A stretch of 64,000 nucleotides of DNA from Gemmatimonadaceae bacterium (GTDB lineage Bacteria > Gemmatimonadota > Gemmatimonadetes > Gemmatimonadales > Gemmatimonadaceae): the NCBI GenBank assembly GCA_025934775.1, contig JAICWO010000011.1, positions 124,001-188,000 of the forward strand. The letters are read 5' to 3'. This document shows, piece after piece, positions 7,891 through 50,170 of this stretch; position 1 is the stretch's first letter; every line of letters begins with the position of its first letter. A model generated the notes under the pieces. That model had not been told where the DNA came from. It saw nothing but the letters and a program-made list of their open reading frames with translations, and made no database searches. The translations under genes and the position numbers were made by a program.

Positions 7891-7984
7891 GATGCTCACC
7901 GCGGCAATGCCGCTCGAAAATTATTGACCGGCCGAGTGCTGGTCCCTAAATTGCTTTTCTGAGAACCAGAAGCAACTACTCGGG

Positions 7985-8002
7985 ACGGAGAACTCCGTTT
8001 TT
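7985..8002 (+). terminator. Short hairpin followed by T run
   Basis: ACGGAG, loop AA, CTCCGT, then a T run (7998-8002). Six base pairs with a U tract is a minimal intrinsic terminator on the + strand. No + strand gene ends just before it; the transporter stops at 7698, so it would end either read-through or a small RNA starting nearby. Confidence 0.4.
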
Positions 8003-8140
8003 GAGCCAACAAGTCCACCGAGTGGGTTCGATAATCTATCACCGACGTCATGCCCCCAGTGCGGGGGAAGGCGGAAGGTTGGTGGTGAGGACCTCATAAT
8101 TCGACTGGGCTTCACAAAACCCTCTCCGGACCGAACTCTC

Positions 8141-8168
8141 GAGCCCCGCGGCGAACGCCGTGGGGCTC
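8141..8168 (+). terminator. Strong GC-rich hairpin, possible terminator
   Basis: GAGCCCCGCGGCG (8141-8153), loop AA, CGCCGTGGGGCTC (8156-8168): 13 pairs including one G-T wobble, followed by GTACTTTTGT. This is the most stable hairpin in the gap and lies directly before the heptamer element that abuts the queD start. It may end an upstream transcript, or be the closing hairpin of a structured RNA. Confidence 0.5.
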
Positions 8169-8182
8169 GTACTTTTGTGGCG

Positions 8183-8275
8183 GAGAGTGGAGATTGGAGA
8201 GTAGAGAGTGGAGCAGGGCGCCGTCCAACCCGCGCCTCCACCCTCCACACTCGACTCTCTACTCTCGACTCTCTC
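8183..8275. repeat. Heptamer palindrome A, directly before the queD start codon
   Basis: Left arm 8183-8210 is four tandem 7-mers (GAGAGTG, GAGATTG, GAGAGTA, GAGAGTG). The loop is 8211-8234. Right arm 8235-8275 is CCTCCAC twice, then ACTCGAC, TCTCTAC, TCTCGAC, TCTCTC. The left arm plus three bases matches the reverse complement of the right arm at 26 of 31 positions, with mismatches scattered through the heptamers. The right arm ends on the base before ATG 8276, so the start codon has no conventional Shine-Dalgarno sequence. It shares its organisation, but not its sequence, with other loci in this window. Confidence 0.8.
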
Positions 8276-8689
8276 ATGGCCACCGTCACCATCACCCGCC
8301 GGCTCCTCTTCAACGCCGCGCACCGGGTCCACAATCCGGCGCTCTCCGAAGAAGAAAACCACCGCCTGTTCGGCAAGTGCAACAATCCGAACTGGCACGG
8401 GCACAATTACACGCTCGACGTGTCGGTGACCGGCGAAGTCGAAGAGCGCACGGGATACGTCATCGATCTCGGCGCGCTCAAGCAGATCGTCGAGCGGGAA
8501 GTGATCAACAAAGTCGACCATCGCAATTTCAATCTCGAGGTCGACTTCATGCGCGGCGTGATCCCGACGACGGAGAACATCATCGTCGGCATGTGGCGCG
8601 TGCTCGAGCCGGCGATTCGCCCCGCGCGGCTCACCAAGCTCGTGCTCTGGGAGACGCCCAACAACTACGTCGAGTACGACGGCCAGTGA
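8276..8689 (+). CDS. queD: 6-carboxytetrahydropterin synthase / PTPS family (QueD-like)
   Basis: 137 residues. The zinc-binding histidines of the PTPS/QueD fold are present: FNAAHRVH near residue 12, then NWHGHNY with the HGH pair near residue 40. Further family marks are GYVIDLGALK, VDHRNFN and PTTENI. QueD converts dihydroneopterin triphosphate to 6-carboxytetrahydropterin in queuosine synthesis; close relatives make 6-pyruvoyl-tetrahydropterin, and the two cannot be separated by reading alone. No other que genes are adjacent. ATG 8276 follows a pyrimidine-rich repeat arm rather than a ribosome-binding site. The stop overlaps the start of the following SDR gene, implying coupling. Confidence 0.88.
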   Translation: MATVTITRRLLFNAAHRVHNPALSEEENHRLFGKCNNPNWHGHNYTLDVSVTGEVEERTGYVIDLGALKQIVEREVINKVDHRNFNLEVDFMRGVIPTTENIIVGMWRVLEPAIRPARLTKLVLWETPNNYVEYDGQ

Positions 8690-9396
8690 GTGCGCCGCGC
8701 ACGGCCCTCGTCACCGGCGCCTCACGCGGCATCGGCCTCGCCGTGGCGCAATCGCTCGGCGATCGCGGCGTGCGCGTCGCGATGCTCGCGCGCGATGCGA
8801 CGCGGCTGCACGAGGCCGCGAGCACGATCGGCCAGCGCGCACTCGCGATTCCATGCGACGTCGGCCATACGGCCGAGCTCGATGCGGCGCTCCAGCGTGT
8901 GCGCGACGGGTTGGGCGACGCGCCCGACGTCGTCGTGAACAACGCCGGGCTGTTCGCCCTCGCTCGCGTCGACGAGACCGAGCCCGCGGACTTTCTGCGC
9001 GCGCTCGAGACGAACCTGGTCGCCGCGTTCCGCGTCGTGCACGCGTTTCTTCCCGCGATGCGCGAGCGCGGCGGCGGCCACCTGGTCACGATCGGCTCGA
9101 TCGCCGATCGATTCGCGTTTCCTGAAAACGGCGCGTACTCCGCGAGCAAGTATGGCCTGCGCGGGTTGCACGAGGTGCTCCGCGCCGAGCTCGCGGGCAC
9201 CGGAGTGCGCGCGACGCTCATCTCGCCCGGACCGGTCGATACGCCGATCTGGGACGCGATCGACCACACGCGGCACAGTGGTCTCCCGACCACATCGCGC
9301 ATGCTGGGCGCCGACGCCGTCGCCGATGCGGTGGTGTACGCGGTCATGCAGCCGTCGAGCGTGAACGTCGACGAGCTGCGCCTCTCCCGAAGCTGA
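8686..9396 (+). CDS. Short-chain dehydrogenase/reductase (SDR)
   Basis: 236 residues from GTG 8686, overlapping the queD stop by 4 nt. Classical SDR motifs: TGASRGIG cofactor loop near residue 11, NNAG near 85, catalytic Ser in TIGSIADRFAF, and YSASKYGLRG with the YxxxK pair, followed by SPGPVDTPIW. The charge pattern after the first beta strand (LARDATRL) suggests NADP preference, which is an inference. SDRs paired with PTPS-fold enzymes include sepiapterin reductase-like proteins, so a pterin ketone substrate is an attractive but unproven possibility given the tight coupling. Confidence 0.88.
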   Translation: MSAPRTALVTGASRGIGLAVAQSLGDRGVRVAMLARDATRLHEAASTIGQRALAIPCDVGHTAELDAALQRVRDGLGDAPDVVVNNAGLFALARVDETEPADFLRALETNLVAAFRVVHAFLPAMRERGGGHLVTIGSIADRFAFPENGAYSASKYGLRGLHEVLRAELAGTGVRATLISPGPVDTPIWDAIDHTRHSGLPTTSRMLGADAVADAVVYAVMQPSSVNVDELRLSRS

Positions 9397-16504: not shown

Positions 16505-16646
16505 TCTCGAGACCAGTTTCGAGAATCGAGATGAGAGATCCGAGATTCGAGACTTCGTTGGAACGAGCTCGGCTGCCGCTGCGCGCAACGAAGCAATCTG
16601 ACTCGCATCTCGCGTCTGCCATCTCGCGTCTCGGAACTGGTCTCGC
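16505..16646. repeat. Heptamer palindrome B between convergent genes
   Basis: It fills most of the 234-bp gap between the PRTase and V4R genes. Left arm 16505-16560 holds tandem 7-mers TCGAGAA, TCGAGAT, GAGAGAT, CCGAGAT, TCGAGAC, TTCGTTG (16519-16560). Right arm 16586-16646 is its imperfect complement and carries one additional heptamer. Both arm ends match well: GAGACCAGTT outside and TTCGTTG inside. The loop is about 25 bp and contains CGAGCTCG. The single-heptamer length difference between arms points to slippage in units of seven. The flanks of the gap (16463-16504 and 16647-16696) show nothing else I can name. Confidence 0.8.
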
Positions 16647-29744: not shown

Positions 29745-30515
29745 TCAGCGCTGCGTCAACGAGTCGAGCGACACGCGAATCGTGCCGTCGGACGCCGTCT
29801 TCACGCTGTAGTACGTCGGGTAGCGTCCCGCGGTCTGGAACTGCTGCGGCTGCTTGACCGGCGCGGTCACGTCGGGATGGCCGGCCAGAAAGGTCCGCGT
29901 GACCATCGGCTCGATGAACATCATCTTGCCGTGATAGAATCCGTAAATGAGCGTATGGTCAAACGTCTGGCCGTGGAACTCCGCCGACGTCGTGTCGACC
30001 CAGTGGACGCCCATGTCCGGCACGGCCTCCACGCCCGAGATGTAGTCCGTCGGCACGTTTGCCGCCGGCACGGTGACCGTGTCGGGTCCCGGCTGGACCG
30101 ATGCCTGCTCGCTGCGGCTCACGGAGTAGAAGTGGAAGTCGAAGTGCGGTAGCATGTACATCGCCGGCGGATGGCCCTGCACGTTCCAGTTGATCTCCAC
30201 GTGATCCCATGGTGCCGCCGCCGAGCCAGCGGGGAGCGGCAAGTCCCACATGCTGTCGACGGACGGCAAGCCGTTGAGCGCGCTGGGCGAGAGCGCGACG
30301 CCAATGCTCGACATGCCGCCCGGCGCCGTCACGACGAACGCGTGCGCGGTGCCGTTGCCAACCGTGACGGGAGCGCCGCTGACCTCGACCGTCCCCTCGG
30401 GTCCCGTATCCGAGCTGCACGCTGCGGCAAACGCGATGACCGCGACTGCCGCCGGGATGGTGAGCGCGCCGGAGCGGCGGACGCGGCTCCCAATCCGCCA
30501 AACTGCATCCAACAT
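29745..30515 (-). CDS. TTHB210/DUF5602-like lipoprotein
   Basis: 256 residues from ATG 30515, with GGAGG 5 nt upstream (a GTG at 30527 is less likely). The signal has an N-terminal Arg-rich stretch and lipobox AAAC (AVIAFAAAC). The mature protein carries DHVEINWNVQGHPPAMYMLPHFDFHFYSVS, His-rich, plus VPDMGVHWVDTTSAEFHGQTFDHTLIYGFYHGKM. This His-dense pattern matches the DUF5602/TTHB210-like family of secreted proteins from Thermus and many soil bacteria. Metal binding is likely by composition; function is unknown. A short Cys-free mature region argues against redox chemistry. Confidence 0.75.
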   Translation of the reverse strand: MLDAVWRIGSRVRRSGALTIPAAVAVIAFAAACSSDTGPEGTVEVSGAPVTVGNGTAHAFVVTAPGGMSSIGVALSPSALNGLPSVDSMWDLPLPAGSAAAPWDHVEINWNVQGHPPAMYMLPHFDFHFYSVSRSEQASVQPGPDTVTVPAANVPTDYISGVEAVPDMGVHWVDTTSAEFHGQTFDHTLIYGFYHGKMMFIEPMVTRTFLAGHPDVTAPVKQPQQFQTAGRYPTYYSVKTASDGTIRVSLDSLTQR

Positions 30516-45421: not shown

Positions 45422-45530
45422 GGGGCGGTCGCTTTTGTCGCGAGTTGTGTGTGACGGGTAATGGGTTCTGCGTTCGAAACCCAACACCTGAAACGCGCAA
45501 CCCACGACCCGCAACAAAAGCGACCGCCCC
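45422..45530. repeat. Heptamer palindrome C in the divergent promoter region
   Basis: Left arm 45422-45474 and right arm 45477-45530 begin with 17 identical complementary bases (GGGGCGGTCGCTTTTGT) and continue as degenerate 7-mers: TTTTGTC, GCGAGTT, GTGTGTG, ACGGGTA, ATGGGTT on the left; complements of TTTTGTT, GCGGGTC, GTGGGTT, GCGCGTT on the right. Partial pairing extends outwards (GGCGCGGGA near 45402 with TCCCGCGCC near 45550). The loop is almost absent, so the arms meet. The 229-bp gap between the hydratase and topoisomerase genes (45366-45594) should hold both promoters, yet almost all of it is palindrome. Confidence 0.75.
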
Positions 45531-49769: not shown

Positions 49770-50170
49770 TGCGGGCGCTCGTGGTGGTGCTCGCCCTCTG
49801 TGGGAGGTTGGATGTTCGAGGTTGCAGGTTGGCAGCAGCGAGCGGCGACAGCGGGGGCCGTCTCCGCTCTCCACTCTCTACTCTCAACTCTCCGAACGTC
49901 CAACCTCCCGATTCGTGGTTCGCCCCTGACAAAGCGAAGCACTTCTTCACCGCTGCGTTCGTCCAGACCGCGTCGTTCGGCGGACTGCGCGCGATGGGGG
50001 CGAGTCATCGGGCATCGCTGGCTGGCGCAACGGCGGTGACGGCAGCGGTGAGCATTGGAAAGGAGCTCTACGATCGCCAGTTTGGCGGCGATCCGAGCTG
50101 GAAGGATCTCGCGTGGGACGCGGCGGGTTTACTGGTGGCGAGCGCGATGCTGCACCAGACGAAACCGTAA
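49769..50170 (+). CDS. YfiM-like (DUF2279) protein carrying an in-frame repeat insertion
   Basis: 133 residues from ATG 49769 (overlaps the previous stop). The C-terminal 84 residues match the YfiM/DUF2279 family: DSWFAPDKAKHFFTAAFVQTASFGGLRA, then SIGKELYDRQFGGDPSWKDLAWDAAGLL. In E. coli YfiM this follows directly on a short lipoprotein leader. Here residues 12-47 between the leader (MRALVVVLALC) and the domain are encoded exactly by heptamer element D, translating to GRLDVRGCRLAAAS and onwards. Removing the element leaves the frame open (LALC joined to DSW). The inserted peptide is polar and interrupts what should be a signal sequence, so export is doubtful. Confidence 0.75.
   Translation: MRALVVVLALCGRLDVRGCRLAAASGDSGGRLRSPLSTLNSPNVQPPDSWFAPDKAKHFFTAAFVQTASFGGLRAMGASHRASLAGATAVTAAVSIGKELYDRQFGGDPSWKDLAWDAAGLLVASAMLHQTKP
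49802..49909. repeat. Heptamer palindrome D, inserted in frame within a gene
   Basis: 108 bp, exactly 36 codons. Left arm starts GGGAGGTTGGATGTTCG and runs in 7-mers GAGGTTG, GATGTTC, GAGGTTG, CAGGTTG (49804-49831). Right arm has 7-mers CGCTCTC, CACTCTC, TACTCTC, AACTCTC (49865-49892), then CGAACGTCCAACCTCCC. The ends are complementary over 17 bp with one mismatch; the inner parts use two different heptamers and pair poorly. The CTCTC 7-mers equal those of palindrome A, linking the two loci. No target-site duplication is visible. Confidence 0.8.

Follow-up and report, generated by a model that had tools for sequence, protein, structure and literature searches.

A start-abutting heptamer palindrome ahead of a eukaryote-type PTPS gene is probably a lineage-specific spacer-filling repeat

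Introduction

How is a bacterial gene translated when an inverted repeat runs up to the very base before its start codon? This question is raised by a locus in a Gemmatimonadaceae bacterium, in which a palindrome built of heptamers precedes a gene for a eukaryote-type 6-pyruvoyl-tetrahydropterin synthase (PTPS). An earlier note on this DNA proposed that the right arm could pair with the left arm and so present or hide the start, and that the gene must be translated either from a leaderless message or through the hairpin. The analysis described here points to a different reading: the palindrome is probably a lineage-specific heptamer repeat that fills the spacer and is tolerated by the PTPS gene, which would be translated independently of a Shine-Dalgarno (SD) site and possibly from a leaderless message. 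Such a reading would explain away one apparent regulatory hairpin. Coordinates are positions of the window, the whole 64,000-nucleotide stretch that was analyzed (G000:C12:124001-188000, source genome G000), and the features of the locus are collected in Table 1.

Table 1. Features in and around the palindrome, in window positions
Feature	Position	Strand	Basis
Promoter-like TTGACC-17-TAAATT ahead of the 6S-like RNA	7924-7952	+	promoter scan
Conserved 6S-like structured RNA upstream of PTPS	7955-8139	+	nhmmer, covariation alignment, sub-threshold Rfam 6S
Intrinsic terminator, 13-bp stem, 4-nt loop, tail TACTTTTG	8140-8176 (tail after 8169)	+	sequence, fold, scan
Heptamer palindrome	array about 8182-8275; paired stem about 8183-8213/8243-8273	+	
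Left purine-rich arm, GAGAGTG-type heptamers	8182-8213	+	sequence, repeat pairing, fold
Central non-heptameric part, loop with small inner hairpin	8214-8242	+	RNA fold
Right pyrimidine-rich arm, CACTCTC/TACTCTC-type heptamers, to the base before ATG	8243-8275	+	sequence, repeat pairing, folds
TACTCT, TANNNT-type -10-like hexamer in the right arm; candidate leaderless promoter element	8260-8265 (-16; 10 nt before ATG)	+	
Eukaryote-type PTPS	8276-8689	+	profile scores, structure relatives, orthologues, coding potential
Short-chain dehydrogenase, overlapping the PTPS stop at GTGA	8686-9396	+	sequence, profile search

The palindrome and its predicted fold

The palindrome does extend to the base before the start codon, as the earlier note had it. 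The sequence at 8241-8278 ends in cactcgactctctactctcgactctctc and is followed by ATG, whose A lies at 8276. The last heptamer had been given as TCTCTC, a slip, as this string has six letters. In a repeat search, 8190-8213 and 8250-8273 match as inverted copies, with 88% pairing over 24 nt. RNA folding of 8178-8305 yields -60 kcal/mol against -42.5 +/- 3.6 for shuffled sequences (z -4.8), and the longer segment 8130-8330 reaches a z of -7.3 against shuffles, so the fold is well beyond chance.

Pairing in the stem stops at about 8272-8273, leaving the final two bases of the array unpaired. AUGG forms a four-base bulge in the longer fold, and part of it pairs weakly downstream in the shorter one; in neither of the two folds is the PTPS AUG paired with the palindrome arms. 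A search of Rfam at gathering thresholds gives no match in the window. At loose thresholds the palindrome matches only miRNA hairpins, by shape, and these matches were judged to be due to chance.

The PTPS gene and its start codon

The gene had been named queD, a label that the profile scores make doubtful. Its product scores 61.5 bits against the NCBIfam QueD equivalog, below the cut-off of 89.25, and 90.6 bits against the 6PTHBS family TIGR00039, below the curated cut-off of 125.5. The best solved relatives found by phmmer are the mammalian PTPS structures 1b66 and 3i2b (E about 1e-35, residues 5-137), with the bacterial QueD 4ntm far behind (E 1e-7). The segment KCNNPNwHGHNY aligns with KCNNPN-HGHNY of eukaryotic PTPS, as expected of a eukaryote-type enzyme. 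The gene is best described as a eukaryote-type PTPS and not as a clear QueD. Together with the overlapping short-chain dehydrogenase (8276-9396) it looks like a putative pterin pathway pair. A more distant second PTPS/QueD-like gene lies elsewhere in the genome, at G000:C6:122451-122762.

Two lines of evidence favor the start at 8276: coding potential begins there, and orthologues from about 30 genomes align to PTPS from residue 1-3. A GTG at 8177 opens the same frame and reads through the palindrome, but a longer protein beginning there can be set aside: orthologues have their starts at or beside the ATG, coding potential begins at the ATG, and nothing SD-like precedes the GTG.

A 6S-like RNA and its terminator lie upstream

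The palindrome is preceded by a structured RNA, which the terminator ends just ahead of the palindrome. With nhmmer, related RNAs turn up ahead of most of the PTPS orthologues examined; at one locus (L048) the RNA is far from the start. An alignment of 14 sequences contains 55 predicted pairs, 12 of them with compensatory changes, and this covariation supports a long rod whose 5' and 3' ends close in a stem. Sub-threshold matches to Rfam 6S occur in the window (E 0.16, 17.9 bits) and at L029 and L036. The best score, 27.5 bits at L029, lies below the gathering score of 46.4 bits for RF00013, and the RNA is therefore called 6S-like only. At L036, which belongs to another genus, a palindrome of more than 200 nt (about 1218-1469) sits between the 6S-like RNA and PTPS, with pyrimidine-rich right-arm units such as CTCCCACT.

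Heptamer palindromes are dispersed through the source genome

The element at PTPS is one of many. A 100-base palindrome query returns 102 BLAST pieces from its own genome. The survey of palindromes covers 2.05 Mb of the 4.88 Mb source genome (42%), plus 0.4 Mb of G004. The source portion holds 58 period-7 arrays, and for 40 of these an inverted copy lies nearby. Each of the other periods between 4 and 20 yields 0-24 arrays, except the harmonic 14 (38), and a second-order Markov copy of the same DNA yields 0 arrays at period 7. A looser catalogue lists 52 candidate period-7 palindromes in the 2.05 Mb, about 38 of them in gene spacers, including a few inside genes or of great length that are likely false. 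The elements probably arose by repeat expansion or copying.

Several unit classes coexist, comprising GAGAGTG, CCGTGGA, CGTTNTC with GGTCGCTGTCGTT ends, GAGGTTG and CGAGATN. Three further palindromes in the window illustrate this variety. A CGAGATN-type heptamer palindrome at 16508-16645 has conserved ends, CGAGACCAGTT and AACTGGTCTCG, and resembles an element at G000:C6:86543. A near-symmetrical palindrome of 109 nt at 45422-45530 has GGGGCGGTCGCTTTTGT and ACAAAAGCGACCGCCCC ends, the end sequence resembling the CGTTNTC class. At 49803-49908, a single palindrome mixes GAGGTTG-type and GAGAGTG-type heptamers.

Elements follow stop codons and often reach the next start

Elements are placed unevenly among gene pairs. 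Of neighboring pairs, those with an element number 31 among 1112 in tandem, 7 among 210 convergent and none among 206 divergent, counted on gene calls from our own coding-potential caller, which is also the source of gene starts outside the conserved genes; gene names at the flanking loci were read from translated sequences. Of the 31 tandem cases, 23 have no more than 8 nt between the upstream stop and the element, and 13 have no more than 8 nt between the element and the start codon. Where the spacer leaves at least 30 nt free, the element is stop-proximal in 12 of 17 cases, against 1.5 expected from random placement. Both edges are tight in several short spacers, with stop/start gaps of 2/1, 0/-1, 4/4, 3/4 and 3/5 nt. 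Arm polarity is fixed, the purine arm being 5' in all 21 GAG-class elements.

The starts that are abutted or approached include those of atpD (behind atpG), an argF-like gene, pdhC, pilT, a cox3-like gene and pilC, with hslU 10 nt off. An SD-like motif is present in only 1 of the 14 start-adjacent cases listed, at window position 30515, where the element itself is doubtful. Core genes of this lineage can thus have a start codon immediately after a repeat arm and no SD site. At L410 (G000:C20:3382-3404), the pyrimidine arm of an element reaches the start region of an apparent rpsS (ribosomal protein S19).

The PTPS palindrome fits this stop-to-start pattern, except that what precedes it is the terminated RNA and not a stop codon. 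In the reading preferred here, elements directly follow upstream 3' ends, usually a stop codon, and extend to the next start codon where the spacer is otherwise empty; at PTPS, one copy fills the whole gap between the terminator of the 6S-like RNA and the start.

The same spacers differ between related species

The PTPS spacer varies sharply among relatives. In G003, the closest congener (89% protein identity), the gene begins at the same codon, and no palindrome or SD site lies ahead of it; G005 likewise lacks both. In G004, the spacer holds a palindrome of GGGCGTAT octamers. G024, from another genus, has a TTGGTAG-type heptamer palindrome that ends at the base before a GTG start. G002, of the same genus, has the same start behind an SD site (CGGAGGGAGCGAC-ATG) and no palindrome. 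A close relative of this kind, with a normal ribosome-binding site in place of the arm, was what the earlier note had named as evidence against its proposal.

Other spacers behave similarly. At atpD, G004 has a spacer of 10 nt and G002 one of 2 nt, and in G005 the spacer is palindromic with another unit. At pdhC, octamer palindromes are present in G004 and G005 and a TTTAGGG-type heptamer palindrome in G002; the spacer in G003 is short, with GGAGAGAG. The pilT spacer is filled in G000 only and measures 0-6 nt in congeners. Across congeners, 8 of 33 spacers reach a palindrome score of at least 18 in a 170-nt window, against 6.25% for the null (P=0.0008), a comparison in which the use of G000 tandem upstream regions as the null is a weakness and in which this cut misses two visible cases, atpD in G005 and cox3 in G002. 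Lowering the cut to 16 weakens the refilling signal, with 9 of 33 spacers passing and a null of 13% (P=0.02).

In this reading, elements are gained and lost, or rewritten, quickly: in one and the same spacer, related species have other 7- or 8-nt units or none. Refilled spacers would either attract such elements or retain old elements whose units become rewritten. The replacement of units at the same spacers makes the origin of heptameric repeats testable by comparing closely related genomes.

Refilling, stop-hugging and arm polarity are more orderly than expected of pure junk, and the elements may have some generic role at the ends of genes. A stronger version holds that gene spacers of this lineage are rebuilt repeatedly and independently with species-specific 7- or 8-nt palindromic arrays, the purine arm lying after an RNA 3' end and the pyrimidine arm able to serve the next gene as a leaderless promoter or initiation region as well; the elements would then form a fast-turning, genome-wide class with a shared generic function and some mechanism of copying. 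This version is judged unlikely.

A narrower proposal, somewhat less doubtful yet still on the unlikely side, is that the hairpin acts after the stop for the upstream RNA, in 3'-end stability or termination as in REP elements, and that its abutment on the next start is incidental. The strong anchoring to stop codons, the consistently 5' purine arm, the lack of elements between divergent genes and the position of the PTPS palindrome directly after a terminator all agree with it. Against it, the RNA upstream of PTPS already has its own terminator, and many relatives have no element at the same loci.

Placement also bears on translational coupling. A hairpin could loop out the spacer and bring the upstream stop beside the start, and termination-reinitiation would then stay possible after a spacer has expanded; the title of one paper (PMC10666635) names overlaps or very short intergenic distances as a requirement of reinitiation. 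Elements that hug both stop and start in several short spacers would suit such a role, as would the 0-10 nt spacers at the atpD and pilT junctions of congeners. Convergent pairs, in which coupling is impossible, are nevertheless filled at the same rate as tandem ones (7/210 and 31/1112), many elements occupy long spacers, and PTPS has only a terminated RNA upstream and no cistron. Coupling is thus an improbable explanation.

No sign that the arms are tuned to each other

The idea that the arms pair to hide or present the PTPS start draws on the stable fold (z -4.8 to -7.3) and on the position of the AUG at the foot of the stem. Several findings count against it. The same element type occurs at dozens of unrelated loci, the AUG lies outside the stem, and the palindrome is not conserved at PTPS among congeners. 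In addition, arms pair within elements no better than between them: for the 21 GAG-class elements, the own-arm alignment score is 23.4 and the cross-element score 23.0 (P=0.21), and for the PTPS element 85% of the cross-pairs score higher than its own two arms. As a test for arm co-variation, this comparison is negative. There is no sign of a tuned hairpin switch, since the arms of an element are no more complementary to each other than to those of other elements. The arms appear to pair as a side effect of being built from one set of units in opposite orientations. The first half of the earlier proposal holds, in that the arms could pair in a stable predicted hairpin with the AUG at its foot; the present-or-hide device is not supported, given the dozens of copies and arms that show no sign of tuning, and a gene-specific switch is highly improbable. 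A gene-specific function of any kind would probably be absent.

Translation without an SD site

That the gene has no SD-type ribosome-binding site is confirmed: the SD tetramers GGAG, GAGG and AGGA are absent within 20 nt upstream of the ATG, and GGAG near PTPS occurs only in the left arm, at least 60 nt away. SD tetramers precede 20-31% of called starts, compared with 11% in a control stretch, values diluted, like the TANNNT signal discussed below, by start-calling errors. Because SD motifs mark only 20-31% of called starts, the SD-less PTPS start is ordinary here, and PTPS would be translated without an SD site, as apparently are most genes called in this genome. The earlier choice between a leaderless message and translation through the hairpin therefore keeps its common ground, SD-independent initiation, and stays two-way: the message may start at or near the AUG, or it may carry a hairpin leader whose foot leaves the AUG free.

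The right arm hints at how a leaderless message might arise. It could supply a -10 box, TACTCT, from which a leaderless or nearly leaderless PTPS mRNA would be made without the left arm. Genes of this genome have an excess of TANNNT-type hexamers at -15 to -11, which rises to about 4-fold in first genes. Among 29 PTPS orthologues, 7, including that of G003, have TANNNT at -17 to -10 (P=0.0008), and 5 have an SD site. Of 8 start-facing GAG arms, 5 have AGAGTA at a distance of 6-10 nt from the start, as does none of 16 stop-facing ones. Before ATG, TACTCTC is counted 8 times and CACTCTC 10 times, against 38 and 131 times in the whole of the 2.05 Mb (P=0.035), although this mild enrichment was found post hoc in small numbers, with the idea formed on part of the same data, and some of the matched ATGs are not real starts. 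On the other side, TACTCT has no -35 partner, a promoter scan finds no promoter-like site for PTPS at the palindrome, a distance of 10 nt is near the upper limit for a leaderless start, and several abutted genes (atpD, rpsS) have CACTCTC instead. A leaderless promoter in the right arm is possible without being probable, and it is treated as a lead rather than a result. It is compatible with the spacer-filling repeat favored above.

Comparison with known repeat systems

REP elements are dispersed extragenic palindromes, often near gene 3' ends, that are mobilized by RAYT (Y1) transposases. The elements described here share the dispersed extragenic palindromic nature of REP elements and differ in their heptad build and variable unit. 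A search for Y1_Tnp (PF01797) finds no match in G000 at E <= 0.001, whereas five of the control genomes match; by this search, a Y1/RAYT mobilizer is absent. The short tandemly repeated repetitive sequences (STRR) of heterocystous cyanobacteria are heptanucleotide arrays dispersed in spacers, to that extent similar, with different units. A literature search returned no paper on such palindromes in relatives of Gemmatimonas.

The closest descriptions are the heptamers of Xanthomonas and Nostoc and the TAACTGA repeats of Maribeggiatoa. GGGAATC and GGGGA(C/T)T repeats are known from Xanthomonas and Nostoc (Rehm et al. 2015, PMC4692102), with 70-75 convergent inverted heptamer pairs per Xanthomonas genome. 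These G-rich repeats lie within 50 bp after stops (sense) or before starts (antisense), are scarcer between divergent genes, and differ in length and sequence between close species; the same paper mentions tandem heptanucleotides in Calothrix (PMC4692102). The elements in G000 likewise have a heptamer unit, intergenic dispersal in inverted convergent pairs, under-representation between divergent genes and variation between close species, and they follow the placement of such repeats, near stops (sense) and starts (antisense) and absent between divergent genes. Unlike the Xanthomonas and Nostoc repeats, their main class is GAGAGTG, without GGG tracts. This consensus lacks the GGG unit capable of forming a G-quadruplex, and GGG units do occur in congeners, for example G004 and G002. 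A further difference is the presence of several unit classes per genome, and the 7- or 8-nt units in a given spacer change from one congener to another. The elements can be classed as the same kind of repeat as those of Rehm et al., a heptameric one, and not as the same sequence family.

In Maribeggiatoa, direct TAACTGA heptamer repeats end a few nucleotides from start codons, with an SD site in about 10% of repeat-bearing spacers against 25% of genes overall, and the genes concerned include presumably essential ones (MacGregor 2015, PMC4679880). Heptamers in G000 similarly adjoin the starts of mostly SD-less genes, presumably essential ones included. The Maribeggiatoa repeats are direct (with one indirect repeat only), have a single unit and no hairpin, and are anchored to starts, whereas the elements described here are anchored to stops. 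Both papers leave function open (PMC4692102; PMC4679880). What sets the present case apart is the coexistence of several units, the palindromic build and the replacement of units among sister species. GAGAGTR arrays themselves are found in many phyla among the matches listed.
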